From Methanoculleus caldifontis (GTDB taxonomy: Archaea > Halobacteriota > Methanomicrobia > Methanomicrobiales > Methanoculleaceae), in contig NZ_WBKO01000001.1 in the NCBI RefSeq assembly GCF_032842345.1, positions 1,178,001-1,242,000 on the forward strand: 64,000 nt of DNA. Direction: 5' to 3'. The notes beneath the pieces are model-generated. The model saw only the letters and a program-made list of their open reading frames with translations, was not told where the DNA came from and did no database searches. Below, one piece after another: positions 15,225-45,992 of this stretch. Positions within the stretch are counted from its first letter, which is position 1; each line of letters opens with the position of its first letter. The position numbers and the translations under genes were made by a program.

Positions 15225-16931
15225 TTACCGGGCCGGAATGATGAGCGAGCGCTCGCCGGCGGGCATAAATTCGCGGATCGCACCCTTCGCGAACTCGCGG
15301 CGGGGCTCGGCGAAGTCGAACTTCAGCGCGGGGTCGGCGAAGCAGATCTTCACCCGCGGGTCGAAGCACCATGCGTCGCCGCGGCCGTAGTGGGCGCCGG
15401 CGGTGATGGCGGCGTACTCGCCCTGGTGTCCGACGTTCATTGCGTAGTTCGGGTAGTTCGGGCCGCGGACCTCGCCGATCGCACCCTCGTCTCCACGCAT
15501 GGAGAGCGAGTTCGCGGAACCGCACTGGTCCTGGAGGTCGTAGCCGAAGAAGCCGAGACGCGACCATCCGTCCTTGTGCAGGAGCATGCAGAGGTACCAG
15601 GCGTTCAGACCGGCGTTCGAGTTTCCGGTTGCGATGGAGGTCGACAGACCGCAGGCGGCGGCAAGCACGCCGGCACGCTGGGACCCGCCGAAGTGGTCCT
15701 CCATCATGGTCGGGAACTGCTCGTACTGCTCCATGCCGTTGAGGGCGACCTCGGTCGCGATGTCGTTGACGATATCGTAGGTCGGCTTGATCTTGTCGTT
15801 CGGGCTCGGGTTCTTCCAGTCGACCTTGTACTTGTCCTTGATGTAGTCCATACCGTAGTAGGTGAACTCATCGAGGATGTTGTCGGTGTAGGCCGCGGTC
15901 GCGTACTGGGTGAATCCGACACCGCCGGACATGTAGGAGCCGAGCCAGATCTGGTCGTAGAGCATGGTTCCGGCGCCGACGACCTCAAGGGAGGCACGGG
16001 CGGGGTCGTTGGGGTACTTCCGGTTCGCCTGGACGATATCGGAGAAGAGACCGAATGCAAGGCCACCGGGCTCGTTCGGGCCACGGGCACGCCGGGCGGG
16101 CAGGTGGGACGCCATCTGGATGACACCCGCGTGCTTCGCGGCGTAGGAGAGGTCGGCGACAGCCGCTTCGCCGGCGCACATGCGGTAGGCGCCGATGAAG
16201 GACATACCGATCTGCATCGCAGACCACCGGGAGGTCGTTCCACCGTCGCAGGTCCGGACGACCGTGGTCGGGATGTGGATCGCCTGCCAGAGGGACTTTC
16301 CTACGGCAGCGGAGAGCGCCTCAGCCTGCTTGCCGGGGAAGAGCTTCTCGACGTCGAGGACGAACTGGGGCTCGAGGTCGTCGGCAAGTTCCTGGTCGCC
16401 GGTGAAGACCTTGACGTAACAGTCGTCGACGAGGCCGGGGTGAGTCTCGACCATGTGTTCCTGAACGACGGCCGCGCCGGGCATCGCGTGGTTCAGCACG
16501 TGGAGGTACTCGTTGATGGTCTCGGGGGTGACTTCCTTACCCAGACGCTTCTGCAGGGTCTGGTGGGCGAGGTCCATGTTGACGATGACGGTCCGCCGGA
16601 TGTCGTCCCACATCTGCTGCATTGCAGCGTTGTTGACGAAGTGCAGGTCGTCACCCTCCACGAAGACGCCGGTGCCGCTGACCTCGTAGGTCATCAGCTG
16701 GCGCTGGCCGAGCGGGATACCGCCGAGGTGGCAGCGCACGGGGTCATACATGGAGATGCCGCGGTCCATCTCGACGGCGCGGCTCGCCTTCACGAACTCC
16801 TCCTTGCGGGGGGACTGGTGGTAGCCGTTGAACTTGTAGAACTCGGTCGTCTCGGACTGGACGTCCTGTCCCTGGAACTTCTCCTTGAGCGACTTCAGGA
16901 ACAGCTTCTTGGTTCTCTCAATCTTTGCCAT
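15225..16931 (-). CDS. mcrA: Methyl-coenzyme M reductase subunit alpha
   Basis: 568 residues, full length. MCR (alpha2beta2gamma2, coenzyme F430) converts methyl-CoM and CoB to methane and the heterodisulfide. Visible landmarks are VVQEHM with the Gln that ligates Ni, AKHAGVIQM with the methyl-His site, [14 protein letters not shown] with the methyl-Arg site, [19 protein letters not shown], and GYDLQDQCG with the thioglycine and methyl-Cys positions. Whether these modifications are made cannot be read from DNA. It is the last gene of mcrBDCGA, 5 bases after mcrG. Confidence 0.99.
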
Positions 16932-32080: not shown

Positions 32081-32085
32081 GGCAT

Positions 32086-32250
32086 GAGAAGCCCCCAGGC
32101 TTCAAGATGCGACGTTCCATCTGGAACGGAGTTTGAGAAGCCATCAGGCTTCAAGATGCGACGTTCCATCTGGAACGGAGTTTGAGAAGCTATCAGGCTT
32201 CAAGATGCGACGTTCCATCAGGAACGGAGTTTGAGAAGCCCTCCGGGCTT
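32086..32250. repeat. 49-bp tandem repeat, three units plus a partial fourth
   Basis: Units start at 32086, 32135 and 32184, each exactly 49 bases, beginning GAGAAGC and ending GGAACGGAGTTT; a degenerate fourth begins at 32233 and breaks down by about 32250. Each unit contains two small inverted repeats: GAAGCC..AGGCTTC and GTTCC-ATC(T/A)-GGAAC. Differences are confined to three or four positions. Units touch without spacers. The rest of 31893-32486 shows no supported gene. Confidence 0.9.
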
Positions 32251-32486: not shown

Positions 32487-32527
32487 CATTAAATACCGTT
32501 ATCAACGATAATCTTGTTAACGATAAT
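32487..32527 (+). promoter_or_regulatory. Promoter with TTATC-AAC-GATAA palindrome and AACGATAAT repeats, upstream of CoB operon
   Basis: CATTAAATACC (about 32488-32498) is a TATA candidate. Directly after it, TTATC-AAC-GATAA (32499-32511) is a perfect inverted repeat, and AACGATAAT occurs twice (32504-32512 and 32519-32527). The cluster ends 12 bases before the first ATG (32540), overlapping the probable transcription start, which suggests a specific regulator of the operon. Confidence 0.5.
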
Positions 32528-32539
32528 TTCGGTGACATC

Positions 32540-33496
32540 ATGATCACGCTCACGCCTGATGACGTCAGGGCCCGGTTCGGGCCGCTCTTCTCGATGAAGT
32601 ACCTCGCCATGGTCGATCAGAACGCCGGTCTCGCGGAGATCCGCGAGCAGTGCCGGGCCCGGGGGACGATCGAGTGGGATGCGGCGAACCGCGTGCGGGC
32701 GAAAGGTGCGGTCCTCTCCTGCCATGTCGAGGGCACGACGATGACGATGCTTGCCCGCCTGGGCGTATCGCCGGCGAATTTCGGGGCCGCGAGCACCGAG
32801 ATCGGCGGGCAGGCACTCGAGGGTGTCGAGGTTCTCGGCGACGAGGTGGTGACCACCTGGGCCGGGATCGCGGGAGCGGGCGTCGGCGTCGCTGCCTGCC
32901 TCCCCCAGGCGCCGGGCGTGATCCGGGCCGAGTACCCCTCCGAGGACGATCTGCGGATCGGGGGTGCCCGGGTCTGCCGGGTGCGGATCGCATCACCGCT
33001 CTATGAGAAGGTGACGATCGGGATCGACGACACCGACACCCGCGAGGAGGGCGCCACGTGGGTGCTCGCGCTCAAGTGCGCCGAGGCCTGCACGATCCCC
33101 GGTGTCGAATACCTCGACATGCGCCTCGTGCAGTTGAACCCCGCGGTCCCGAAGAAGACCACCAACTGCGTTGGATCCGCCCTGAACTTCGCGGTCCGTC
33201 CGGGGAACGTGGACGCATTGATCGAATACGTCCGCGACTTCATCGAGTCGGAGGCGGTCAGCAACGACACCGGCATCGCGGTATACCGCGGGATCGCGTT
33301 TGCGGAGGAGTCCCCCTATCTCAAGCGGGTCAAGACCGAGCTCCTGACGGTCGAGGATGCGGAGGCGGAGGCGGCACGGATGGGTGTCCGGTTCGTCGAC
33401 TCGAACAGACGGAAAGGGCGGATTGGAGCACTGGGCGCTGTTCTCTGGGGGAACAAGGGCGTTGAGGCGGCAGGGCTGTATGGAGAGACTCTCTGA
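32540..33496 (+). CDS. Methanogenesis marker protein 11-like protein (paralog 1)
   Basis: 318 residues from ATG 32540, with GGTGA about 5 bases upstream; the longer open frame upstream lies in repeats. A central motif IGIDDTDTREEGATW (near residue 160) followed by VQLNPAVPKKTTNCVGSAL is shared with the next gene and resembles the IGxDDTD motif of the TiaS (tRNA-Ile agmatinylcytidine synthetase) nucleotide-binding domain. Overall similarity to the next product marks it as a diverged paralog of methanogenesis marker 11. Function unknown. It begins the nine-gene operon and overlaps the next gene by 17 bases. Confidence 0.7.
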   Translation: MITLTPDDVRARFGPLFSMKYLAMVDQNAGLAEIREQCRARGTIEWDAANRVRAKGAVLSCHVEGTTMTMLARLGVSPANFGAASTEIGGQALEGVEVLGDEVVTTWAGIAGAGVGVAACLPQAPGVIRAEYPSEDDLRIGGARVCRVRIASPLYEKVTIGIDDTDTREEGATWVLALKCAEACTIPGVEYLDMRLVQLNPAVPKKTTNCVGSALNFAVRPGNVDALIEYVRDFIESEAVSNDTGIAVYRGIAFAEESPYLKRVKTELLTVEDAEAEAARMGVRFVDSNRRKGRIGALGAVLWGNKGVEAAGLYGETL

Positions 33497-34373
33497 TCCC
33501 TACACGATACGGTATCCGCAGATCGTTGCGGTGGCCGGCGAGGAGGCCGGGCAGGTGGAACTCATCGAGTTCTTCGACTGCATCGGCGGGGCGATGTGGG
33601 TGAAGCGCCACTACGCGCAGAGTCCGCTCGTCCGCTCCGTCCGCACCGTGGGCGCGACCAACCGCTACCTCCTCTCGACCGGCAACGCCGACCTCGCGCT
33701 CGCAGGGTCGATCTTCCCGGCAGGGATCGCCGGCGTCGCCGTCGAAGGCGACGAGATCGCAATTACCTACCGCGGCCTCGGCGGCGGCGGCGTGGGCGCG
33801 TCCATCTGCCGTGCCGGGGCCAGCGGTGTCCTCCGCCATGAGAGCGACCCTGCGGGCGGCGGGCGTCTTGCGGGCTCGACGATCTGGCTCCCCCGCCGCG
33901 AGCGGGTGATCATCGGCGTCGACGACACCGACACCCCCGAGGAAGGCGCCACCTGGACGCTCGCCCACAACATCGCCCGGGCCGTCGAGGACGACCGTTC
34001 CCGCTACCTCTCCCATACCATCGTGCAGCTCTACCCCGTCCCCTACCGGACCAAGAACTGCGTCGCCATCGCCTGCGAGTTCGCCACCTCCGACCCCGAC
34101 GGGCTCGTCCGGCGCTACCGCGATCTCCTCGAGGAGTACACCCTCTCGGAGAAGACCGGGATGGCGGTCTGGCGGGGATTCGATCCCGCCCCGCTCGAGG
34201 AGTTCGGCTGCCGCGTAAAGCGGGGCGAGGTCTCGCCGGAGGACCTTACCGCCCTCGACGATAAGCGGCTCTCGGTCGTCATGGACGGCCGGGGAGTGAT
34301 CGGCGCGGTGGCGGCGATCCCGTTTTACACCCGCTACGAGGAGGCACTGGCGTTATGGACTGGCGGCGGCTGA
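33480..34373 (+). CDS. Methanogenesis marker protein 11
   Basis: 297 residues. The N-terminus (ERLSDPYTIRYPQIVAV) and the motif IGVDDTDTPEEGATWTLAH near residue 145 followed by VQLYPVPYRTKNCV are those of methanogenesis marker 11, a family found in methanogens and of unknown function. The DDTDT motif is shared with TiaS, suggesting ATP or nucleotide binding. It overlaps both neighbours (17 bases upstream, 19 downstream), so its product is probably made in step with the radical SAM protein and the CoB enzymes. Confidence 0.8.
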   Translation: MERLSDPYTIRYPQIVAVAGEEAGQVELIEFFDCIGGAMWVKRHYAQSPLVRSVRTVGATNRYLLSTGNADLALAGSIFPAGIAGVAVEGDEIAITYRGLGGGGVGASICRAGASGVLRHESDPAGGGRLAGSTIWLPRRERVIIGVDDTDTPEEGATWTLAHNIARAVEDDRSRYLSHTIVQLYPVPYRTKNCVAIACEFATSDPDGLVRRYRDLLEEYTLSEKTGMAVWRGFDPAPLEEFGCRVKRGEVSPEDLTALDDKRLSVVMDGRGVIGAVAAIPFYTRYEEALALWTGGG

Positions 34374-35326
34374 AGGCCCGGGTACTTGAGGCGGGCGCCG
34401 TCCGCCTCACCGGCAGACCTGCGGACGGATACGTCTCCCGTTCCGCCGCGGGCCCCTCGGCTGGGAGTTCCGGGTCGCTCTTCTTCTCCACCGGCGCCGG
34501 CCGGCGGGTCCGGGCCGGTATCGATGAGGGAAGCCCCATCGAGATCTTCCACCGCGGAGGAGGCGAGGCGGACCTCTCCATCGACGGCGACGTCTTCCGC
34601 GGCCGGCTCGAACCCGCCGCCCTCCACTGCCCCCGCCAGGCCTATATCACCGTCAGCGGGTCGTGTATCTTCCACTGCCGCTACTGTATGGTCCCGTCTC
34701 TCCCCGGCCGGCGGAAAGGGGTTGAAGAAATCGTCGGGATGGTCGCGGGCGTGGCCGACCGGATCGACGCCGTCTCGATCACGAGCGGCGTCGCCTCCTC
34801 GATCGAGGAGGAGGAGGCATACGTCCTCGAGGTCGTGGCAGCGCTCGCCTCGTTCGACCTCCCTATCGGGGTCTCGATCTATCCCGGGCCGGAGACCCCT
34901 GCCCGGCTCCGTGCCCTCGGCGTCGCCGAGGTGAAGTTCAACCTCGAGGCGGCGACTGAGGCGCTCTTCTGCGAGATGTGCCCCGACCTCTCGTGGGACG
35001 GGGTCTGGGACTCCCTGCAATCGTCCGTCGCGCTCTTCGGACCGGGCAGGGTCTACTCGAACGTCATCGTCGGCCTCGGCGAGAGCGACGGCGATCTCGA
35101 GCGGGTGATGGGCGACCTCGCCGCGGCCGGGGTCATCCCGGTCCTCCGGCCGCTCACCCCGGCGGCATCCCTCGCCGACCGGCCCCGGCCGTCCGCAGAA
35201 CGGCTGCTCCGGCTCTACAAGGCTCACGACAGGATCCTCCAGCAGGCCGGTCTCGACCCCCGCCGGGCGCTCACGATGTGTTCGGCATGCACCGGGTGCG
35301 ACCTTACGCCGGGGAGGGACGTATGA
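34355..35326 (+). CDS. Radical SAM protein of the CoB/MMP11 operon
   Basis: 323 residues. Residues 104-111 are CIFHCRYC, the CxxxCxxC ligand set for the SAM-binding [4Fe-4S] cluster. A second cysteine cluster, CSACTGC, lies about 10 residues from the C-terminus and may bind another cluster. The N-terminal 95 residues are an extra beta-rich domain. I do not recognise a characterised family; it is not Mmp10. The stop overlaps the next start (ATGA). A role in sulfur insertion, methylation or cofactor modification is possible but only inferred from the operon. Confidence 0.8.
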   Translation: MDWRRLKARVLEAGAVRLTGRPADGYVSRSAAGPSAGSSGSLFFSTGAGRRVRAGIDEGSPIEIFHRGGGEADLSIDGDVFRGRLEPAALHCPRQAYITVSGSCIFHCRYCMVPSLPGRRKGVEEIVGMVAGVADRIDAVSITSGVASSIEEEEAYVLEVVAALASFDLPIGVSIYPGPETPARLRALGVAEVKFNLEAATEALFCEMCPDLSWDGVWDSLQSSVALFGPGRVYSNVIVGLGESDGDLERVMGDLAAAGVIPVLRPLTPAASLADRPRPSAERLLRLYKAHDRILQQAGLDPRRALTMCSACTGCDLTPGRDV

Positions 35327-36579
35327 AGGGCACCGAGGCGCTCGCCCTCGCGATCCTCCGGGCTGCCGACCGCTGCTACGCCGTCCCCGGCTACCCGGTC
35401 ACGGACCTCGTTGCCTCGGCCGGGGCCGCGCTCACCGTCAACGAGAAGGTGGCGCTCGAGTACGCCCTCGGCGACTCGCTCTCCGGGAGGAGGGCCGCCG
35501 TGATCGTCAAGAATGTCGGCCTCAACGCCTGCGCCGACCCGCTGGTCCACGCCACCGCCCAGGGTCTCCGGGCGGGGGTCGTGGTGGTCGTCGGCGACGA
35601 TCTCCGCGCGGCCGGATCGGACGTCGTGCAGGACTCGCGTTACTACGGCGAGGTGGCCCGGGTGCCGGTCATCGAGCCCGACTGCGAGACGATCGGCCAG
35701 GCCGTCGAGGCGGCCTTCGAGGTCTCGGAGACCTTTTCACGGGTCGCTCTCGTCAGGGTCACGCCCGACCTCCTCGAAGCGGACGTCCCGGAACCTTCCT
35801 TCCTCCGCAACGACCGCGAGGGGAGCCTCGCGGAACCGGACCTCACGATGGCCGGACGGGCGCGGGCAGCGGACCGGCGGACGGCGGCGATGTTTGCCTG
35901 GTCGCGGTCCTCGCCTCTCAACCGCTCCGCCGGAGGGGCGTTCCGCGCCGTCACCGTCTACCCGCCCCCGGCAGACCCTGAGGTGCTCGCCCTGGTCCCC
36001 GAGACCGGCCGCCCCTTCCTCTCCGAGCACCGGCTGCTCTCCCCTCCAGAACCCGCCGGAGAACCGGAGCGGTTCTCCTCGCGGGGCTACTGCCGGACGT
36101 TCTGCCGGACCTGCCCGTTCCATTCCGCGCTCGGTATCCTCTCCGAACGCGGGATGCGGGTCGTCTGCGACGCCGGGTGCGCGATCCTCGCGATGAACCC
36201 CCCCTACCGGGTCGGGCTTGCGACCTACGGCCTCGGCTCGTCGGTCGCCGTGGCGGCGACCGGTCCGGGCGTCGCGCTCACCGGCGACTACGCGCTCCTG
36301 CACTCGGGGTTAAACGCCCTCATCGACGTCTACGAACGAAACCTCCCGCTCCTCTGTATCGTCCTCGCGAACAACCGGATGGGGATGACCGGCGGTCACC
36401 CCGTCCCCGAGATCCTTCGCTACATCGCCTGGGCGGACCCGGTCATCTGCGCTGCGGACGACACCGCAGCGCTTCGCCGGGCCCTCGTCCCCCCGAGAGG
36501 GGGACCCCGGACGGTGATCGTCGAAGGCGCCTGCCCTGAAGGTGAAGAACATGCTACCGTGGCATATCGAGATCTGTGA
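35323..36579 (+). CDS. IorA-like thiamine pyrophosphate enzyme lacking ferredoxin domain; candidate 2-oxoacid decarboxylase
   Basis: 418 residues from ATG 35323 (overlaps the radical SAM stop). The N-terminal half matches the pyrimidine-binding domain of indolepyruvate ferredoxin oxidoreductase alpha: NEKVALEYALG with the catalytic Glu, then VKNVGLNACADPL. The C-terminal half has CRTFCRTCPFH and the TPP/Mg motif GDYALLHSGLNAL followed by NNRMGMTGGHP. The C-terminal two-cluster ferredoxin domain of IorA is absent and no IorB gene is near, so a non-oxidative 2-oxoacid decarboxylase is plausible. Being translated together with aksA makes 2-oxosuberate a good substrate candidate. Its end overlaps aksA by 29 bases. 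Confidence 0.75.
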   Translation: MKGTEALALAILRAADRCYAVPGYPVTDLVASAGAALTVNEKVALEYALGDSLSGRRAAVIVKNVGLNACADPLVHATAQGLRAGVVVVVGDDLRAAGSDVVQDSRYYGEVARVPVIEPDCETIGQAVEAAFEVSETFSRVALVRVTPDLLEADVPEPSFLRNDREGSLAEPDLTMAGRARAADRRTAAMFAWSRSSPLNRSAGGAFRAVTVYPPPADPEVLALVPETGRPFLSEHRLLSPPEPAGEPERFSSRGYCRTFCRTCPFHSALGILSERGMRVVCDAGCAILAMNPPYRVGLATYGLGSSVAVAATGPGVALTGDYALLHSGLNALIDVYERNLPLLCIVLANNRMGMTGGHPVPEILRYIAWADPVICAADDTAALRRALVPPRGGPRTVIVEGACPEGEEHATVAYRDL

Positions 36580-37681
36580 TGTAACGCTGCGAGACGGGGA
36601 GCAGACTCCCGGCGTCTCCTTTACCCGCGATGAGAAGATGGCGATCGCGCAAGCGCTCGACGAGATCGGCGTGGAGGTGATCGAGGCCGGTTTCCCCGTG
36701 GTCTCCGCATCGGAGAAGGAGTGCGTCGCCGCCATCGCCCGGAGCGGCCTTGACGCCCGGGTCTGCTGTCTTGCGCGGGCTCTGCGCCCCGACATCGAGG
36801 CGGCCATCGATTGCGACGTGGACATGGTCAGCATCTTCATCGCGACCTCGGACCTCCACATCCGGCACAAGTACCGTAAACCCCGCGAAGAGGTGCTCGA
36901 GAGTGCCCTCGGCATGGTGGAGTTCGCCTCCGACCACGGGCTGCAGGTGCGGTTTGCGGCCGAAGATGCCTCACGGACCGACCCGGCGTTCCTGGTGGAG
37001 ATGTATACCCGGGGCGTCGAGTGCGGTGCCGATCTCGTCAGTTTCGCAGATACCGTCGGGTGTCTCACCCCGCTCGAGATCCACGCGGTCGTATCGGAGA
37101 TCCTCGGCAAAGCGCCCCTCCCGCTCTGTATCCACTGCCACAACGATCTCGGGTTTGCCGCGGCAAACACCGTCACGGCAGCGGCTGCCGGGGCGTTCCA
37201 GCTCCACACCACCGTCAACGGCATCGGGGAGCGTGCGGGCAACGCGGCGCTCGAACAGGTCCTCGTCGCCCTGCGGCTGAAGGGCGGCATCGATCGCTAC
37301 GACCTCTCGCGCCTGCAGGAGATCTCGCACCTGGTCGCAGGGTCTTCGGGCGTGACCCGAGAACGCACCCGGCCGATCGTCGGCGAGAACGCCTTCGCCC
37401 ACGAGAGCGGGATCCACATCGCCGCGATCCTCGAAGACCCGGCGACCTATGAGTACGTGCCCCCGGAGATGGTGGGCGGCGAGCGCCGGTTCATCCTCGG
37501 GAAGCACACGGGGAAGCGGGCTCTCGAGCATGTCGCGAAGGCCTACGGGTTCGACCTCTCCGATGGCGAAGCGCGGTGGGTGCTCGAGCAGGTCAAGCAG
37601 AAGAGCGAGGGGAAGTGCAGCGTCACCCGCGAGGTGCTCTGCACGATCCTGCGGCAGGCAAAGGAGGGTGTCTCACGGTGA
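36551..37681 (+). CDS. aksA: Homocitrate synthase family protein AksA (coenzyme B pathway)
   Basis: 376 residues from ATG 36551, with AAGGTGA upstream; GTG 36542 is less likely. LeuA-family hallmarks: IEICDVTLRDGEQTPGVSF, CIHCHNDLGFAAANT with the metal-binding His pair, and NGIGERAGNAALEQ. AksA condenses 2-oxoglutarate (and longer 2-oxoacids) with acetyl-CoA to make 2-oxosuberate for CoB. Citramalate or isopropylmalate synthase are alternatives by sequence, but clustering with homoaconitase, AksF-type dehydrogenase and marker 11 favours AksA. No regulatory C-terminal domain is present, as expected for this class. Confidence 0.85.
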   Translation: MLPWHIEICDVTLRDGEQTPGVSFTRDEKMAIAQALDEIGVEVIEAGFPVVSASEKECVAAIARSGLDARVCCLARALRPDIEAAIDCDVDMVSIFIATSDLHIRHKYRKPREEVLESALGMVEFASDHGLQVRFAAEDASRTDPAFLVEMYTRGVECGADLVSFADTVGCLTPLEIHAVVSEILGKAPLPLCIHCHNDLGFAAANTVTAAAAGAFQLHTTVNGIGERAGNAALEQVLVALRLKGGIDRYDLSRLQEISHLVAGSSGVTRERTRPIVGENAFAHESGIHIAAILEDPATYEYVPPEMVGGERRFILGKHTGKRALEHVAKAYGFDLSDGEARWVLEQVKQKSEGKCSVTREVLCTILRQAKEGVSR

Positions 37682-38889
37682 GCACGCTCTCCGAGAGGAT
37701 CCTCGGCGCACCGGCGGGGAGATACGTCGACCGGGAGGTCGATGTCGCGTTCGCCCACGACGGGACCGGCGTCCTCACCAGGGAGGCGCTCAGGGAGATG
37801 GGAGTGGAGAGCCTCCCTCATCCCGATCGCCTGCGCCTCATCTTCGACCACATCGTCCCGGCGAACACCGGGACGACGGCGACGCTCCAGGCGGAGCTCC
37901 GCGAGTATGCCCGGGTCTCGGGGATAGCCCTCTCCGACGCCGGAGGAGGGATCTGCCACCAGGTGATGAGCGAAGGCCTCGTCCGGCCCGGGATGGTCGT
38001 CGTGGGCGCCGACTCCCACACCTGCACCCTCGGGGCTCTCGGCGCGTTCGCCACCGGGGTGGGTGCGACCGATATGGCGGCGATCTGGGCATCGGGGGCC
38101 ACCTGGTTCCGGGTCCCGGAGACGATCGCGGTCAACCTCGCCGGGAGGCTCGACGGAGCTGCGGAAGCAAAGGACCTCGCTCTTGCCTACGTCGCAGAAC
38201 TCGGCATGGAGGGGGCGACCTACCAGGCGCTCGAGTTCGTGGGGGACGGGGCGGCAGGGATCTCCATGAGCGGGAGACTGACCCTCTGCAACATGGCGGT
38301 CGAGACCGGGGCGAAGACGGGGATCTTCTATCCCGACGAGGTCACCGCCCGTCATCTCGGGGAATACGGCCTTACGGCATCGCCCCTGACCCCGGAGGAC
38401 TGTTGCTACGAACGGACGCTCGATCTCGACCTCGCCGATGTCGTGCCTCTTGTCGCGGTCCCGCACCGGGTGGACACCGTCAGGGAGGCGGAGGCGCTCG
38501 CCGGCACGCACCTCGACCAGGTCTTTGTGGGGACCTGCACGAACGGCCGTTACGAGGACCTTGAGCGGTTTGCCCGGATCGTGCGGGGGAAGAAGGTGGC
38601 GGTCCGGACCCTGGTCGTCCCCGCCTCGCGGCCGGTGCTCGCCCGGGCGATCGCCACCGGCGTCCTTGCCGATATCGTGGAGGCGGGATGCATGGTGGCG
38701 CCGCCCGGCTGCGGGCCGTGTCTCGGGGCGCACGCGGGCGTGCTCGGCGAGGGCGAGGTCTGCCTCTCCACGGCCAACCGGAACTTCAAGAACCGGATGG
38801 GTGTCGGCGGCGAGATCTACCTCTCGTCGGTCGCCACCGCCGCCGCAAGCGCGCTTGCGGGCGTAATCGCCGTGCCGGAGGTGGTATAA
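37678..38889 (+). CDS. aksD: Homoaconitase large subunit (AksD/HacA)
   Basis: 403 residues from a GTG at 37678 that overlaps the aksA stop. Aconitase features: DHIVPANTG, GADSHTCTLGALGAFATGVGATD (in part), and Cys ligands of the [4Fe-4S] cluster in GTCTNGR and PGCGPCLG. With the small subunit it dehydrates/hydrates homocitrate and longer analogs in 2-oxosuberate formation. The LeuC-type isopropylmalate isomerase is the main alternative; context favours the CoB role. Confidence 0.85.
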   Translation: MSTLSERILGAPAGRYVDREVDVAFAHDGTGVLTREALREMGVESLPHPDRLRLIFDHIVPANTGTTATLQAELREYARVSGIALSDAGGGICHQVMSEGLVRPGMVVVGADSHTCTLGALGAFATGVGATDMAAIWASGATWFRVPETIAVNLAGRLDGAAEAKDLALAYVAELGMEGATYQALEFVGDGAAGISMSGRLTLCNMAVETGAKTGIFYPDEVTARHLGEYGLTASPLTPEDCCYERTLDLDLADVVPLVAVPHRVDTVREAEALAGTHLDQVFVGTCTNGRYEDLERFARIVRGKKVAVRTLVVPASRPVLARAIATGVLADIVEAGCMVAPPGCGPCLGAHAGVLGEGEVCLSTANRNFKNRMGVGGEIYLSSVATAAASALAGVIAVPEVV

Positions 38890-39360
38890 ATGCAGGGAGC
38901 CGGACCGGCGGTCTGTATCGGGGACGACATCGATACCGACCTCGTCATTGCCGGTCGCTACCTCCGGACGAAGGACCGCTCGGTCTGGGCGGAGCATGTC
39001 TTTGAGGATCTCGACCCGACGCTTGCCGGCCGCCTCCGCGGTGCGGTCGTCGTCGCCGGGAGAAATATGGGATGCGGTTCTTCCCGCGAGCAGGCGGTCG
39101 TCGCCCTCCGTGAAGCGGGTGTCGTCGGGGTCGTCGCTCCCTCCTTCGCCCGCATCTTCTTTCGGAACGCGGTCAACGTGGGCCTCCCGGTGATCGAGGC
39201 CGCTATCCCCTGTACCGACGGGTCCCGCGTCGCCTTCGACCTCGATGCGGGGTGGGTGGAGGTCGACGGGGAACGATATCCCGCCCGCCCGCTCTCGGAG
39301 AAGATGGTCGCGATCCTCCGGGCCGGAGGGCTGGTGCCCTACTGGAGGTCGTGCCGATGA
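38890..39360 (+). CDS. aksE: Homoaconitase small subunit (AksE/HacB)
   Basis: 156 residues starting right after the large-subunit stop. Swivel-domain features are DDIDTDLVIAGRYLRT and GRNMGCGSSREQA. The YLRT loop is the substrate-specificity signature I recall for methanogen homoaconitase rather than isopropylmalate isomerase, supporting the CoB assignment. The stop overlaps the next ATG. Confidence 0.85.
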   Translation: MQGAGPAVCIGDDIDTDLVIAGRYLRTKDRSVWAEHVFEDLDPTLAGRLRGAVVVAGRNMGCGSSREQAVVALREAGVVGVVAPSFARIFFRNAVNVGLPVIEAAIPCTDGSRVAFDLDAGWVEVDGERYPARPLSEKMVAILRAGGLVPYWRSCR

Positions 39361-40178
39361 TCTTCCCGCCCCACTGCAAGTTCGTCGGGTCCGCGACCAC
39401 CGCCCCTTACGGCGAGCGGGTCTACTTCCTCTCGCGCTACCTGGTCCGCGAGACCCCCGACGGCATGGAGGTGCTCGAGGTCGAGCCCGACCCGGAAGGC
39501 ACCGGACTGATGCGCAGGGTCCTCTCCGCCCGCGTCATCGCCGCCGGAGACGAGGTTTACTGCTATCCCGATCGCGTGAACGTCCAGGATCGAACACTCT
39601 TAGTAAGTGAGGCGATACGGTCCGGGCACCGGTGCACCATATTCACCGGCCACGGCGAACAGACGACGTTCGTCCTCGATCCGGACCTCTCGGGGTTCCT
39701 CCGGATCCACGTCTACGACATCACCCCGCCCCGCCCCCACCTCTCATCCACGCTCACCGAGCTCGAGAGGACCGGGCTCTTCGGGGACCTCGAGGTCGTC
39801 TTTGAGCATCATACGAGGGATATCCGGGAGATCCAGGGCGACGTCTACCCCTGCCGGGCGGCGGGGTTCCCCCGGACCCTCGACGCCGACCCGGTCCGCC
39901 CCGGCGACCGGGTCGTGGGCTGCCTGACGGCACAGAACCTCGTGCAGGAGTGCTGCGACGACGGGATCACGGTGGAGAACATCTGCCCCCTCGGCGCGGT
40001 GGCGGCTGAGCCTTTCATCGCCCGGTGCTGCCGGAGCGAGCGGGCAGGTCTCGGCCGCTGGAACGGCCGGTTCGGCGCGGTGGTCCACTGGGGCGCATCG
40101 GCGTGGGAGATCGCGCAGGCGGTCCGGCAGGTGGCGACCGCATGGAGGGAGAAGCATGGTGAAGGTAGCGGTCGTTGA
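39357..40178 (+). CDS. Unknown protein inserted between homoaconitase and AksF genes
   Basis: 273 residues; its ATG overlaps the aksE stop and its end overlaps aksF by 23 bases, so it is tightly coupled to the CoB enzymes. No membrane segment or known fold is recognised. Visible features are FTGHGEQTTF, FEHHTRDI and a Cys-rich C-terminal third (GCLTAQ, ECCDDG, ENICPLG, ARCCRS), together a plausible metal or iron-sulfur site. Its position suggests a role in the unresolved steps after 2-oxosuberate (decarboxylation, thiol formation), but that is inference. Confidence 0.8.
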   Translation: MIFPPHCKFVGSATTAPYGERVYFLSRYLVRETPDGMEVLEVEPDPEGTGLMRRVLSARVIAAGDEVYCYPDRVNVQDRTLLVSEAIRSGHRCTIFTGHGEQTTFVLDPDLSGFLRIHVYDITPPRPHLSSTLTELERTGLFGDLEVVFEHHTRDIREIQGDVYPCRAAGFPRTLDADPVRPGDRVVGCLTAQNLVQECCDDGITVENICPLGAVAAEPFIARCCRSERAGLGRWNGRFGAVVHWGASAWEIAQAVRQVATAWREKHGEGSGR

Positions 40179-41124
40179 GGGCGACGGGATCGGGCAGGAG
40201 GTCGTCCCGGTTGCCCGCGAGATCCTCGCCGCCGTGCGGCCGGACTTCGAGTTCTTCGACGTCGAGGTGGGTTACGGCCGGTGGGAGCGGACCGGGAGCG
40301 CCTGCGACGACGAGACCATGAACGACCTCCGGTCGGCGGACGCCATCCTCTTTGGAGCCGTCACGACCCCGCCGGACCCGGACTACCGCAGCGTCCTCCT
40401 GCAGATCCGCCACGATCTCGATCTCTACGCGAACGTCCGCCCGATCCGGGGCGATAATGTCGACGTCGTCATCGTGCGGGAGAACACCGAGGGGCTCTAC
40501 TCCGGGATCGAGTGGACGGAACCTGACCGGGCCTGCACCGTCAGGGTCGTCTCCCGGCGGGGGAGCGAGCGGATCGCCCGCTACGCCTGCACGCTCGCGA
40601 AGCCGCGCCGCCACCTCACCGTCGGGAACAAGGCAAACGTCCTGAAGTCGGACTGCCTCTTCGTGGAGATCTGCACGGCGGAGGCCGTCCGTGCGGGGGT
40701 TCCCTGTACAACCCGCTACATCGACGCGCTCTGCCTCGACCTCCTGATGCGCCCGGACCGCTACGACGTGATCGTGACGACCAATATGTTCGGGGACATC
40801 CTCTCCGACGCCGCCGCCTACCTGGTGGGGGGACTCGGGATGCTGCCGAGCGCGAACATCGGCGAGCGTCACGCTTTCTTTGAGCCCGTGCATGGGAGCG
40901 CTCCCGATATCGCGGGACAGAACGTGGCTAACCCCATCGCCGCCATCAGGAGCGCCGCGATGCTCCTCTCCCACTTCGGGGACACCGCGTCCGCGGCGGC
41001 CGTGGAGGAGGCCGTCGGCCGGGTGATCGGGGCAGGCATCCGGACCCGCGACCTCGGCGGCGCCGCCGGCACCCGGGAGTTCGGGGCGGCGGTGCTCCGC
41101 GAGGTCGGGCGGGGGAAGGCCTAA
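40156..41124 (+). CDS. aksF: Homoisocitrate/isopropylmalate dehydrogenase family (AksF)
   Basis: 322 residues. Beta-decarboxylating dehydrogenase motifs: EGDGIGQEVVP at the start, RENTEGLYSGIEW, TTNMFGDILSDAAAYLVGGLG (in part) and EPVHGSAPDIAGQ with NAD-binding residues. It oxidises and decarboxylates homoisocitrate analogs to the next longer 2-oxoacid. The Tyr-containing TEGLYSG loop fits homoisocitrate-type enzymes. It ends the operon; endonuclease IV follows after 25 bases and may be co-transcribed. Confidence 0.85.
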   Translation: MVKVAVVEGDGIGQEVVPVAREILAAVRPDFEFFDVEVGYGRWERTGSACDDETMNDLRSADAILFGAVTTPPDPDYRSVLLQIRHDLDLYANVRPIRGDNVDVVIVRENTEGLYSGIEWTEPDRACTVRVVSRRGSERIARYACTLAKPRRHLTVGNKANVLKSDCLFVEICTAEAVRAGVPCTTRYIDALCLDLLMRPDRYDVIVTTNMFGDILSDAAAYLVGGLGMLPSANIGERHAFFEPVHGSAPDIAGQNVANPIAAIRSAAMLLSHFGDTASAAAVEEAVGRVIGAGIRTRDLGGAAGTREFGAAVLREVGRGKA

Positions 41125-42269: not shown

Positions 42270-45200
42270 ATGGCTGAACACATAGCGCTGATGATAGTCT
42301 GCGCCGTCATCCTTGCCGGACTGCTGGCTCCGCCCGTTTTTGCGGCGCCTGTGGCTCCGGGGGAAACGATAGCCTTCTGCTCCGCCGGCGGATCGCAGGA
42401 GCATCCGGATATCGACGGCAGCATGGTCGTCTGGGAAGACGGCCGGAACGGGAAGTATATCTACTACTCTACTGCTCCCGGCGGGGGGGGCCAGAGGATC
42501 ACCGACGGCTACGCCCAACAGGGGTATCCATCCGTCTCGGGAGGCCGTATCGTCTGGCAGGACCGGCGGGACGGGGGCCTCGGGATATACATGTACTCGC
42601 CTTCCGGCGGCGAGAGGCGGATCGGCACCGGCACCGGCGACCGGTGGATGCCGGTTATCTATAACAACCATGTTGTCTGGTACGAGAACCGCGAGGGAGG
42701 TGTCGATATCTGCCTCTTCAACATCGGAACGGAAGAGGAGACCTATCTCGACTGCTCGCCGGTGACCGGGTGGAAGCCGGCACTCTCGGACAGATACGTC
42801 GTCTGGGAGGAGAGCACCGGGGGCGGCGACATCTGGACATACGATATCGCGACCGGGCAGAAGAGGCGGATAACCACGAACGGTGCGCGGCAGGCGTATC
42901 CTGCAATATCGGGAGGCCGGATCGTCTGGGAGGATTACCGGAACGGGCAGCCCGACATCTACCTGTACGATCTCGGCGGAGGCCGCGAGTACCGGATCAC
43001 CAGCGACCCCTCCGAGCAGGTCTCTCCAGCGATCGACGGGGATATCATCGCCTGGGAGGACAAGCGGGGCGGCCTCTGGGACATCTACATGCATGATCTC
43101 GACACCGGCGCCGAGATGTCGGTCTGCACCGCCACAAACGAGCAGCTCTTCCCCTCGGTCTCCGGGAGCAGGATCGTCTGGCAGGACAAGCGGAGCGGGG
43201 AGTGGAAGATCTACGCCTTCACCTACGCCGGCGGGAAGCCGCCGGAGGCGGAGTTCTCGGCGTCGCCGGCCGCCGGCACGGTCCCGCTCACCGTCCGGTT
43301 CACCGACCTCTCCGCCGGCGGCCCGGACGCCTGGGAGTGGGAGTTCGGCGACGGTGAGACTTCGACGGAGCAGAACCCGGTCCACATCTACGAGAGCCCC
43401 GGCGAGTACACGGTCTTCCTCCAGGCGAGCAACCGGTTCGGGTCCGACACCGTCACAAAGACCGACCTCATCCGTGCGGAGTTGCCCAGGCCGCCTGAGG
43501 CCGCCTTCTCCGCCTCGCCGGTATCGGGCGGCGCGCCCCTTGCCGTACAGTTCAAAGACGAATCAAAGAACGGCCCCACCGCCTGGTTCTGGGACTTCGG
43601 GGACGGGAACCGCTCTACCCAGCAGAACCCGAAGCACACCTACGTGACGGTCGGCACCTACAGCGTCAGCCTGACCGTTGAGAATGCGGCAGGCGACTCG
43701 AACGTCACGAGAGCCGCCTACGTCACGGTCGTCCGGCCTCCTGAGGCCTCGTTCGAGGCCGATGCCCGGAGCGGGATCGCACCGCTCACCGTCCGGTTCA
43801 CGGACACCTCGACCGGCGACGTCACGACACGGCTCTGGCGTTTCGGTGACGGCAGCTCCTCAAACGACCCAAATCCGGAGCATACCTACCCTGGTGCCGG
43901 GACCTACACCGTCTCGCTCGAGGTCGGGAACGCGGCGGGGAAGGACACCGAGACGAAGAACGATTACATCACCGTGATCGAGCAACCGGTCGCGGCATTC
44001 ACCGCGAACGCCCGGGAAGGAGTCGCCCCGCTCGCGGTCCGGTTCACGGATGCCTCGACCGGGGTTCCGGCATCCTGGTCCTGGAGTTTCGGGGACGGCG
44101 GGACCTCCACAGGCCGGAACCCGGAGCATACGTACGGGAGTCCCGGGACCTATACCGTCTCCCTGACAGTGAAAAACGATGCCGGTGAGAATACGACGAC
44201 GAAAGCCGGACACATAACGGTCTTTGAGCCCCTGGTCGCCGGTTTTGGGGCGAATGCCACGACGGGCAGAGTGCCGCTCACCGTCCGGTTCGCGGATGCC
44301 TCGACCGGCGATATCGAGACCTGGTCATGGCGTTTCGGGGACGGGGGTTCGTCGAACGAGCGAAACCCGACCCATACCTACGGGAGCGCGGGCATCTATA
44401 CCGTCACGCTCACCGTCGCGAACCGATTCGGTGAGGATCTCCGGGAGGTGGCGGGATACGTCACGGTCGCCGCGCCGCCGACGGCGGGGTTCTCCGCGAA
44501 CGTGACCGAAGGCAGGGCCCCGCTCGCGGTCCGGTTTACGGACTCCTCGACCGGGGCCCCGGTCTCGTGGTCGTGGGCCTTCGGTGACGGGGGATCGGCG
44601 ACGGCGGGGAGCCCCGTCCATGTCTACCGGGCGCCCGGGACCTACACCGTCATCCTGACCGTGAAGAACGATGCCGGGGAGGATACGGCGACCCGGACCG
44701 GTTACATCACCGTCCGCGAGCCGCTGGTCGCCGGGTTCACCGCGAACGCGACCGTCGGGGTCGCCCCGCTCGCGGTCCGGTTCACGAATGCCTCGACCGG
44801 GGGCCCGGCGTCGTGGTCCTGGGACTTCGGGGACGGCGAGACCTCCGCGGTGCCCGACCCGGTCCACGTATTCGCGAGACCCGGTACCTACACCGTCGGC
44901 CTGAAGGTCTCCGACGGCGGCGACCACGCTACAAAGTCCCTGCAGATCCGCGTCCTCGGCCCACCCACCGCAGGATTCAGTGCCGTATCCACCAACGGCA
45001 CTGCCCCCCTCGCGGTTACGTTCACCGATGCCTCCACCGGAGACCCGTCCGCCTGGCTCTGGAGTTTCGGTGACGGGGGGACCTCGGCCGACCGCCATCC
45101 CACGCACACCTACGCTGCCGCCGGGAATTACACCGTCAACCTGACGGTGGAGAACGCTGCCGGGAAGGATACCGTGATGAAGACCCGGTACATCTCCGTC

Positions 45201-45992
45201 CACCCCGCACCGGCAACCGCGATACCGACCCAGCCGCCGGCCAGTGGGGGAGGGGGAGGAGGAGGAGGCGGTGGCGGTGGCGGCGGCGGCTGGAACCCGG
45301 CCTGGAACACGCCGACACTCACTCCGACCGCCACGCCGACAGTGACCCCCACCGCGAACGCGACGCCGACCCCTCTTCCTGGAGCGGCCGGGCCGGGCCG
45401 GCTGCTTATCGGTGAGGCCGGCCTCGTGGAAGACCTCGTCCGGGTCGGCTCGTCCGACGGCATTGCGAGTCTCATCGTTGCCGGGGGTGTCAGAGCCGTC
45501 GACGCTGCCGGGAACCCGCTCCGTGCGGTGACCCTCGATGGGCTCGACCCCGTCGAGGTGCCCCCGGTGCCGGGAGTGGGGGCGTATGCCTTTGCCGGGT
45601 ATGCCTGCGCCGCCGGCCCGGAGGGAGCCACCTTCTCGCCGCCGGTGGCTCTGGCGTTCAACTTCACGGAGGAAGAGTGGCATACCGTCTACCGCGGCCA
45701 GGGCGGGCTTCTGGTGCAGTGGTATAACCGGTCGGCGGAGACCTGGGAGGAGGTCCCCACCGCCGTCCACCCCGAGACCCGGAGCGTCACGGCCGAAGTT
45801 TCACACTTCAGCCTGTATGCGCTCTTCGCCGAGGTGCCCGGAGGAGGCGCGGCGCAGGTTGTCGGGCCGGATATCTCTCTCCCGGCGGAGGCCGGGAGCG
45901 ACTCTCCGTACGCGCACGTCGTTCCCGGCCTGATCGCCCTTGCCCTCGTGGGGGCGGGAGCGTTCTTCTACTACCGGCGAGGGGAGACCTGA
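42270..45992 (+). CDS. Large secreted surface protein: beta-propeller repeats, eight PKD domains, poly-Gly and Thr/Pro linker, C-terminal membrane anchor
   Basis: 1240 residues. Signal peptide at residues 1-25 (hydrophobic, ending VFAAP). Residues about 30-325 are TolB-like repeats with the recurrent IVWxDxRxG pattern. Residues about 325-985 are eight PKD domains, each with an APLxVxFTDxSTG...WxFGDGxxS pattern. A run of 15 Gly (about 992-1006) and a Thr/Pro-rich stretch follow, then a domain of about 200 residues and a terminal membrane helix with a Tyr-Tyr-Arg-Arg cytoplasmic end. Likely S-layer-associated or adhesive, on the outside of the cell. Function inferred from architecture. Confidence 0.88.
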   Translation: MAEHIALMIVCAVILAGLLAPPVFAAPVAPGETIAFCSAGGSQEHPDIDGSMVVWEDGRNGKYIYYSTAPGGGGQRITDGYAQQGYPSVSGGRIVWQDRRDGGLGIYMYSPSGGERRIGTGTGDRWMPVIYNNHVVWYENREGGVDICLFNIGTEEETYLDCSPVTGWKPALSDRYVVWEESTGGGDIWTYDIATGQKRRITTNGARQAYPAISGGRIVWEDYRNGQPDIYLYDLGGGREYRITSDPSEQVSPAIDGDIIAWEDKRGGLWDIYMHDLDTGAEMSVCTATNEQLFPSVSGSRIVWQDKRSGEWKIYAFTYAGGKPPEAEFSASPAAGTVPLTVRFTDLSAGGPDAWEWEFGDGETSTEQNPVHIYESPGEYTVFLQASNRFGSDTVTKTDLIRAELPRPPEAAFSASPVSGGAPLAVQFKDESKNGPTAWFWDFGDGNRSTQQNPKHTYVTVGTYSVSLTVENAAGDSNVTRAAYVTVVRPPEASFEADARSGIAPLTVRFTDTSTGDVTTRLWRFGDGSSSNDPNPEHTYPGAGTYTVSLEVGNAAGKDTETKNDYITVIEQPVAAFTANAREGVAPLAVRFTDASTGVPASWSWSFGDGGTSTGRNPEHTYGSPGTYTVSLTVKNDAGENTTTKAGHITVFEPLVAGFGANATTGRVPLTVRFADASTGDIETWSWRFGDGGSSNERNPTHTYGSAGIYTVTLTVANRFGEDLREVAGYVTVAAPPTAGFSANVTEGRAPLAVRFTDSSTGAPVSWSWAFGDGGSATAGSPVHVYRAPGTYTVILTVKNDAGEDTATRTGYITVREPLVAGFTANATVGVAPLAVRFTNASTGGPASWSWDFGDGETSAVPDPVHVFARPGTYTVGLKVSDGGDHATKSLQIRVLGPPTAGFSAVSTNGTAPLAVTFTDASTGDPSAWLWSFGDGGTSADRHPTHTYAAAGNYTVNLTVENAAGKDTVMKTRYISVHPAPATAIPTQPPASGGGGGGGGGGGGGGGWNPAWNTPTLTPTATPTVTPTANATPTPLPGAAGPGRLLIGEAGLVEDLVRVGSSDGIASLIVAGGVRAVDAAGNPLRAVTLDGLDPVEVPPVPGVGAYAFAGYACAAGPEGATFSPPVALAFNFTEEEWHTVYRGQGGLLVQWYNRSAETWEEVPTAVHPETRSVTAEVSHFSLYALFAEVPGGGAAQVVGPDISLPAEAGSDSPYAHVVPGLIALALVGAGAFFYYRRGET

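Follow-up and report, generated by a model that had tools for sequence, protein, structure and literature searches.

A nine-gene operon of Methanoculleus caldifontis as a candidate unit for the later steps of coenzyme B biosynthesis

A run of nine genes in a 64,000-nucleotide stretch of Methanoculleus caldifontis DNA (assembly GCF_032842345.1, contig NZ_WBKO01000001.1, positions 1,178,001 to 1,242,000; hereafter the window, of which the first letter is position 1) probably represents an operon for the biosynthesis of coenzyme B (CoB), the electron donor of methane formation. In the known part of this pathway AksA, AksD/E and AksF extend 2-oxoglutarate to 2-oxosuberate. The nine genes join aksA, aksD, aksE and aksF to the genes of a thiamine pyrophosphate (TPP) enzyme, a protein with the domain of unknown function DUF7714, two paralogues of methanogenesis marker protein 11 (Mmp11) and a radical S-adenosylmethionine (SAM) protein, hereafter rSAM. 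Based on gene content and homology we propose that the TPP enzyme, DUF7714 and Mmp11 would take the steps that follow 2-oxosuberate. One candidate gene is thereby named for each of three missing steps, with predicted substrates, and a methanogenesis marker is brought into a single pathway with a domain of unknown function. The CoB biosynthetic pathway was still called unknown in a recent paper (Chadwick 2025, PMC12068725). A search of the literature lying outside subscription journals and preprints, in which matches to the matrix metalloproteinase MMP11 crowded part of the Mmp11 results, retrieved no paper linking CoB to DUF7714, to Mmp11 or to the TPP protein.

An open reading frame (ORF) check of the window gave one + strand run of nine ORFs at 32540-41124. 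Recomputed junctions overlap by 4-29 bases in seven of eight cases, the single exception being aksD/aksE, which abut; the offsets are -17 bases for mmp11a/mmp11b, -19 for mmp11b/rSAM, -4 for rSAM/TPP, -29 for TPP/aksA, -4 for aksA/aksD, 0 for aksD/aksE, -4 for aksE/DUF7714 and -23 for DUF7714/aksF. The initial annotation had described an overlapping nine-gene operon on one strand, comprising marker-11 paralogues, a radical SAM protein, an IorA-like TPP enzyme and aksA, aksD, aksE and aksF; this layout holds, and family scans agree with the identities, assigning the aks products to the LeuA, HacA, HacB and AksF families. The homocitrate-synthase type aksA (36551..37681, with a GTG at 36542 as alternative start) scores 439.9 bits with LEU1_arch (cut-off 484.75), 381.7 with nifV and 276.7 with PF00682. 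The homoaconitase large subunit type aksD (37678..38889) exceeds the cut-off of the broader TIGR02086 with 479 bits and stays below that of HacA_Meth NF040615 (420.9 vs 550), and the small subunit type aksE (38890..39360) similarly exceeds TIGR02087 (162.5 bits) and stays below HacB2_Meth (153.7 of 230). The homoisocitrate-dehydrogenase type aksF (40156..41124) reaches 380 of 409.8 bits for TIGR02088 and 312 of 540 for AksF2_Meth. The same gene order was seen again in the examined loci of families f2-f6, all of the window's order, and partly in other families; therefore the arrangement is not due to chance. A comparison of gene neighbourhoods across methanogens, as the initial annotation had suggested, is thus favourable, with associations recurring in other phyla as well. 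Together, co-occurrence and synteny support a CoB role of the genes that lack an assigned function, with a strength that differs per gene.

The TPP enzyme (35323..36579, 418 amino acids) is likely a 2-oxosuberate decarboxylase, judging by its domains and gene context. It exceeds the cut-off of the TPP-binding domain PF02775 (35.7 vs 21.9 bits), and G322, D323 and N351 of its GD...N motif are invariant in 13 rows; in one alignment the TPP row starts one codon early. Its score with IorA TIGR03336 is 125.9 bits against a cut-off of 650.9. By eye, the ferredoxin end is missing from the window protein and present in the IorA-like protein of locus L037. The listed TPP orthologues score 400-709 bits with the profile, compared to approximately 280-310 for IorA, with genomes G134 (341) and G149 (333) in between. 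Within the window's order, IorA is the best-listed match in many genomes and other matches were taken as a split orthologue with the middle domain missing; in the examined loci the orthologue was seen directly. In eight loci outside this order the TPP gene either adjoins mmp11 (L059, L060, L062, L063) or sits amid aks genes (L040-L042, L090). In all three Methanomethylicota-titled loci an acetolactate-synthase-like TPP enzyme separates aksE from mmp11, and aksA and aksD lie upstream. Since this enzyme is non-orthologous and occupies the matching place, it provides independent support for a decarboxylation at that point. A GMC-type FAD (flavin adenine dinucleotide) oxidoreductase gene comes after mmp11 in Methanomethylicota (L098:10956-12140).

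Two genomes of one genus, G136 and G217, have lost aksA, aksD and the TPP gene together, while mmp11a, mmp11b, rSAM and DUF7714 are still in a row (L080, L179). They have a single isopropylmalate-isomerase-type large subunit, compared to two in five further genomes of the order (G000, G023, G042, G163 and G212); their aksA-type matches are limited to a LeuA-sized one plus, in G136, one beside nif genes; and each has one TPP match (E 1e-40), compared to three in their congeners G163 and G212. This genome-wide search covered aksA, aksD and the TPP gene. The joint loss splits the operon in two, one half upstream and the other downstream.

For the thiol of CoB, DUF7714 is the best candidate, and sequence comparison inclines us slightly towards its making 7-mercaptoheptanoate. 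The window protein (39357..40178, 273 amino acids) exceeds the PF24830 cut-off over residues 1-263 (284.5 vs 25 bits) and scores 43.1 of the 150 bits of the XcbA family NF052538, hence it is an XcbA relative that is not filed as XcbA. We surveyed 246 genomes of the phylum by means of profile matches for DUF7714, Mmp11 and mcrA; 147 are mcr-positive, including at least one doubtful mcrA match (G119, E 2.2e-4), and since the genomes are related the counts are not independent and Fisher values overstate the case. DUF7714 occurs in 101 genomes, of which 99 have an mcrA match and 100 have Mmp11 over its cut-off. The initial annotation had suggested that the genes of unassigned function should accompany mcr and aks genes and be absent elsewhere; for DUF7714 this holds well, and the two genomes lacking an mcrA match are 70% and 61% complete. 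The locus was examined in 63 of the 101 genomes, and in 57 of these aksE or aksF lies on the same strand at a distance of at most 1.5 kb. The six exceptions are two f31 genomes; G163 and G212, in which DUF7714 adjoins nfo at the opposite side of the mmp11b-to-aksF run; and the above G136 and G217, which lack aksA and aksD.

A tblastn screen of plasmids listed matches in seven records, two of Methylocystis iwaonis (7e-9, 2e-7), two of Mycolicibacterium chubuense NBB4 (2e-3, 0.7) and three weak others. On one M. iwaonis and two M. chubuense plasmids (H1, H3, H4) the bacterial homologue directly follows phosphosulfolactate synthase and is followed by genes for an adenylosuccinate-lyase-like protein, a pyridoxal phosphate enzyme and another lyase; the three homologues score 253-312 bits with PF24830 and 278-439 bits with the XcbA family. 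The neighbours match the gene set of bacterial coenzyme M (CoM) synthesis described in PMC11507031, which presents XcbA as the functional counterpart of a sulfoacetaldehyde dehydrogenase. Cysteines 166, 189, 210, 224 and 225 as well as Trp245-Gly246 are invariant in 15 aligned sequences, three of them bacterial, and the same five cysteines are invariant across 41 archaeal rows of a second alignment. Both f31 genomes have DUF7714, one in two copies, and no full-length match to TIGR03287, the profile that finds Mmp16 and, at 136-165 bits, L-ASST-type relatives of COG1900. The adjacency to aks genes, the homologues in CoM operons, the invariant cysteines and the f31 pattern together point to thiol formation by DUF7714. 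A profile search of solved structures with DUF7714 gave no match up to E 5, and an AlphaFold2 model from one sequence has low confidence, with a mean predicted local distance difference test score (pLDDT) of 36.2. A distant relationship of DUF7714 to COG1900 was rejected (hhalign probability 0.1), the COG1900 set used for this comparison containing one wrong-strand frame (L197).

Whether Mmp11 acts as an ATP-dependent ligase or kinase in CoB synthesis we consider evenly balanced, a role suggested by its TiaS-type kinase domain. Of the two paralogues, mmp11b (33480..34373, 297 amino acids) exceeds the TIGR03280 cut-off of 255.8 with 343.2 bits, whereas mmp11a (32540..33496, 318 amino acids) stays below it with 194.3 bits and is filed as a paralogue. 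Both exceed the cut-off of 27 for the kinase domain PF22641 TiaS_TCKD (62.5 bits for mmp11a, 51.7 for mmp11b), both show a partial TiaS_FLD match (29.4 and 22.3 vs 21 bits), and both remain far below the 600 bits of the full-length TiaS equivalog NF040849 (39 and 21 bits). Residues 140-295 of the AlphaFold2 model of mmp11b (pLDDT 89.4) superpose on TiaS with a Z of 19.4 and a root mean square deviation of 2.1 over 152 aligned residues; the next rows of the comparison (VIA-align) are unrelated proteins with common arrangements, at Z 6.9 and lower. The match covers the C-terminal half of the protein. Across 32 rows no variation occurs at D148, T150, D151 and T158 and very little at G146 and D149; the GxDDTD motif is largely kept. 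T158 aligns to residue 18 of TiaS, which we take to be the autophosphorylated threonine Thr18. In the TiaS reaction a carbonyl oxygen is first phosphorylated, and agmatine then displaces it through its amine. The literature search for TiaS gave no match.

The gene context of mmp11 was studied in named loci, the best 80 of at least 468 relatives, 47 of which are titled Methanobrevibacter. Aks-type genes lie within 6 kb of mmp11 in 50 of these best 80 loci, where aks and leu paralogues were separated by family in L149 only: its large subunit exceeds HacA_Meth (567 vs 550 bits) and its aksF is near the cut-off (502 vs 540). A radical SAM gene touches mmp11 in 13 of the 80, and neither association was found in 17, of which 11 have less than 6 kb upstream and six have more. 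In L173 mmp11 overlaps aksA. The genome of Mnemosynella (G149, L096) has no mcrA match and contains mmp11, rSAM and an aks-type operon; PMC9635834 describes a predicted CoM/CoB-forming fumarate reductase and five methanogenesis markers of unpredicted role in this organism. Retention of Mmp11 there would fit a continuing need for CoM and CoB. A contig titled Actinomycetota bacterium, possibly misbinned or mislabelled, also contains mmp11 with a radical SAM gene (L172:5593-7631).

The rSAM protein (34355..35326, 323 amino acids) exceeds the PF04055 cut-off (43.8 vs 29.5 bits). Its CX3CX2C cysteines 104/108/111 and C-terminal CX2CX2C cysteines 309/312/315 are invariant in 30 rows, including Archaeoglobi-type forms. 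Every NCBIfam subfamily matched stays below its cut-off, among these the LipS2 lipoyl synthase NF053743 (58.8 vs 270 bits), and the nearest solved kin by profile are lipoyl synthase and biotin synthase. Pairing with mmp11 recurs in several lineages. Copies beside mmp11 (in the window's order, two f14 genomes and f31) score approximately 417-512 bits and copies elsewhere in the genome or in other families approximately 369-418; since these ranges meet, score alone does not separate the groups. A sequence-based role in sulfur delivery seems doubtful. The host has a second paralogue away from mmp11 (L178:8995-9987, G000:C2:66997-67971, about 405 bits), and comparable copies are found in some f10 genomes as well as in several further families of methanogens.

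Other assignments have to be weighed. That COG1900 proteins (Mmp16 and L-aspartate semialdehyde sulfurtransferase, L-ASST) make the CoB thiol, leaving reduction, sulfur relay or regulation to DUF7714, appears rather improbable. COG1900 proteins have been suggested for the CoB thiol of Methanosarcina in Chadwick 2025 (PMC12068725), where a MMP16 and L-ASST double mutant was unobtainable even with CoM and the authors link this to CoB. Furthermore, Mmp16 is over its cut-off in nine of the 12 DUF7714 genomes tested, compared to four of nine without DUF7714. However, adjacency to aksE/aksF in 57 of 63 genomes, the f31 genomes with DUF7714 and no full-length TIGR03287 match, and the relatives in bacterial CoM operons all favour DUF7714 as the thiol-forming protein. 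For the TPP enzyme, an oxidoreductase-like reaction yielding a pimeloyl-CoA-type thioester or another C7 product, such as a biotin precursor, is unlikely. The closest named family, IorA, is a subunit of a ferredoxin oxidoreductase, and G134 combines aks-like genes with this TPP type in the absence of mcr, DUF7714 or a full Mmp11 match; yet the ferredoxin end is missing by eye, there is no IorB-like gene among the nine, and the corresponding place in Methanomethylicota is taken by a TPP enzyme of decarboxylase/synthase type.

Mmp11 and rSAM could also form a separate unit that matures methyl-coenzyme M reductase (MCR) or serves another thiol coenzyme, CoM included, and that is merely co-regulated with the aks genes, an option we rate as fairly improbable. 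The pair touches in the 13 loci mentioned; it is also found in genomes without an mcrA match (G024, G034, G052, G149, G188); and TfuA/YcaO-like genes were seen by eye near it in L120 and L167. In two Archaeoglobi-type loci, L053 (G034, no mcrA match) and L099 (Geoglobus), the pair is followed at a distance of approximately 700 bases by genes resembling cysteate synthase and ComDE, at 251-273 of 324.9 bits for the former and, for ComDE, 173-178 bits (alpha, over 147.95) and 192-193 bits (beta, under 221.5); mcr status was tested for G034 only of these two. On the other hand, class I and Methanomethylicota mmp11 sits with aks genes and is untouched by such a radical SAM gene, and the overlap of mmp11 with aksA in L173 likewise connects Mmp11 to the aks genes. 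A mere housekeeping unit, in which the remaining genes share no pathway with aks, is highly improbable. The DNA repair gene nfo begins after a gap of just 25 bases behind aksF, and in Methanobrevibacter loci ribH was seen by eye to separate aksF from mmp11, which shows that genes of unrelated function do enter units of this kind; nevertheless, the associations recur in different orders and phyla and with non-orthologous TPP enzymes, and in two genomes the TPP gene is absent along with aksA and aksD.

A CoB operon with these three candidates also has to face its distribution, several aspects of which weigh against it. DUF7714 is absent from all 151 Methanobacteriota searched and from all 20 genomes behind named Mmp11 loci, some of which are shared with the former set, and no TPP orthologue was found in seven class I genomes, whose best matches (147-293 bits) fall in frames at least as long as IorA; a single genome gave no match. 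In the survey, 48 of the 147 mcr-positive genomes lack DUF7714 and 43 lack Mmp11 over the cut-off. Conversely, 12 of the 116 genomes with Mmp11 over the cut-off have no mcrA match, G034 with its nearby coenzyme M genes being one, so the expected co-occurrence with mcr stands for Mmp11 only in the main. It fails for the TPP type in G134, and this TPP type is therefore not tied to CoB alone; in that genome, which has aksA-, aksD- and aksF-like genes, the ferredoxin-less TPP gene comes immediately behind aksF (L176:4991-10241). The TPP gene lies apart from both mmp11 and the aks genes in G218 and G149, and DUF7714 lies away from the aks genes in f31. In the mcr-positive G020 both DUF7714 and a full-length TIGR03287 match are missing, so in that genome the thiol must be formed by a different enzyme. 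The window DUF7714 scores 43 bits against the XcbA family cut-off of 150, and the persistence of the downstream half alone in G136 and G217 might reflect uptake of an intermediate or a different function. The individual reactions of bacterial CoM synthesis, including the exact one of XcbA, enter here as general background, and if XcbA is a decarboxylase the assignment of DUF7714 would change. The initial proposal that the genes of unassigned function serve the steps after 2-oxosuberate is hence strengthened by distant synteny and homology to XcbA, TiaS and TPP enzymes, and weakened in that the set is not universal, DUF7714 being absent from the 151 Methanobacteriota and the TPP orthologue from the seven class I genomes searched.

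In the pathway that we propose, AksA, AksD/E and AksF would, by homology, convert 2-oxoglutarate to 2-oxosuberate, which the ferredoxin-less IorA-like TPP enzyme would decarboxylate to 7-oxoheptanoate. White reportedly carried out 7-oxoheptanoate labelling, and Methanomicrobium mobile is a CoB auxotroph. DUF7714 would then convert 7-oxoheptanoate to 7-mercaptoheptanoate, probably with cysteine- or iron-sulfur-borne sulfur and a reduction. The TiaS-type ATP site of Mmp11 would phosphorylate the carboxylate, upon which the amine of threonine or phosphothreonine would displace the phosphate to form the amide, a succession that matches the one in TiaS; alternatively, Mmp11 might phosphorylate the threonine hydroxyl. 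The rSAM protein might support one of these steps, perhaps sulfur delivery. More speculatively, and with somewhat less than even confidence, we suggest that the DUF7714/XcbA family makes the thiol of CoM in bacteria and that of CoB in class II methanogens, and that in Mmp11 the kinase domain of a tRNA-modifying enzyme has been recast as an ATP-dependent synthase joining 7-mercaptoheptanoate to threonine (phosphate). If this is true, the operon would, with the TPP decarboxylase, account for the greater part of what is missing in the second half of CoB synthesis. Methanosarcina acetivorans is genetically tractable and has matches to both the DUF7714 and the Mmp11 family, therefore a long-open question becomes directly testable.

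The host genome measures 2.6 Mb in four contigs, and the operon neighbourhood is methanogenic: ftr lies immediately upstream, and the opposite strand of the window contains mcrA, mcrG, mcrB, fwdC, fwdA, fwdB, an hdrA-type gene, hdrB and an fwdF-type gene. In G127 (family f9) an mmp11a-like gene adjoins ftr as well (L068:7059-9039). The genome contains two mcrA genes, at G000:C1:930861-932540 and, on the minus strand in the mcr-fwd-hdr stretch, at window positions 15228-16931. Direct reading of the + strand leader of mmp11a (32489..32539) revealed an A+T-rich sequence with TTAAATA, a possible archaeal promoter. Three imperfect direct repeats with a period of 49 bases, 91-95% alike over 64 bases, occupy 32085-32246 and end 294 bases before mmp11a. 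Downstream of nfo, 42270-45992 encodes a 1240-residue protein with five copies of a 246-base repeat, which by eye looks like a surface protein carrying PKD-like repeats. A family scan places Mmp4/MtxX between aksA and aksD in L098, and the same position was seen by eye in L163; in several lineages it adjoins mmp11, the radical SAM gene paired with mmp11, or aks genes, at L098:5680-6507, L095:11056-11775, L097:12071-12901 and L120:3102-3851; from this context it may be a further CoB gene.

Compared to known systems, the AksADEF pathway is represented here by enzymes of all four types encoded adjacently, and differs in that they share one operon with the TPP enzyme, DUF7714, two Mmp11 copies and rSAM, and in that the window proteins stay below the HacA_Meth, HacB_Meth and AksF_Meth cut-offs. 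The TPP enzyme shares the TPP-binding and pyrimidine domains with IorA, the alpha subunit of indolepyruvate ferredoxin oxidoreductase, but lacks its C-terminal ferredoxin part and belongs to a separate orthologous group. The rSAM protein has the radical SAM core and second cysteine set of LipS2, MSMEG_0568, LipA and BioB, but is below the family cut-offs of LipS2 (58.8 of 270 bits) and MSMEG_0568 (62.2 of 303.7). Mmp16, the CoM synthase, and L-ASST resemble DUF7714 in their proposed aldehyde-to-thiol chemistry, although homology is undetectable at the above hhalign probability. XcbA of bacterial CoM biosynthesis shares PF24830, the five invariant cysteines and a setting in thiol-coenzyme operons with DUF7714, which in the window adjoins aksE/aksF rather than phosphosulfolactate synthase and has the low NF052538 score given above. 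Finally, tRNA(Ile2) agmatidine synthetase TiaS and Mmp11 have the TCKD kinase domain, the GxDDTD motif, the Thr18 position and a partial TiaS_FLD match in common, whereas the N-terminal half of Mmp11 is unlike TiaS and, judged by length, Mmp11 is too short for the rest of it.

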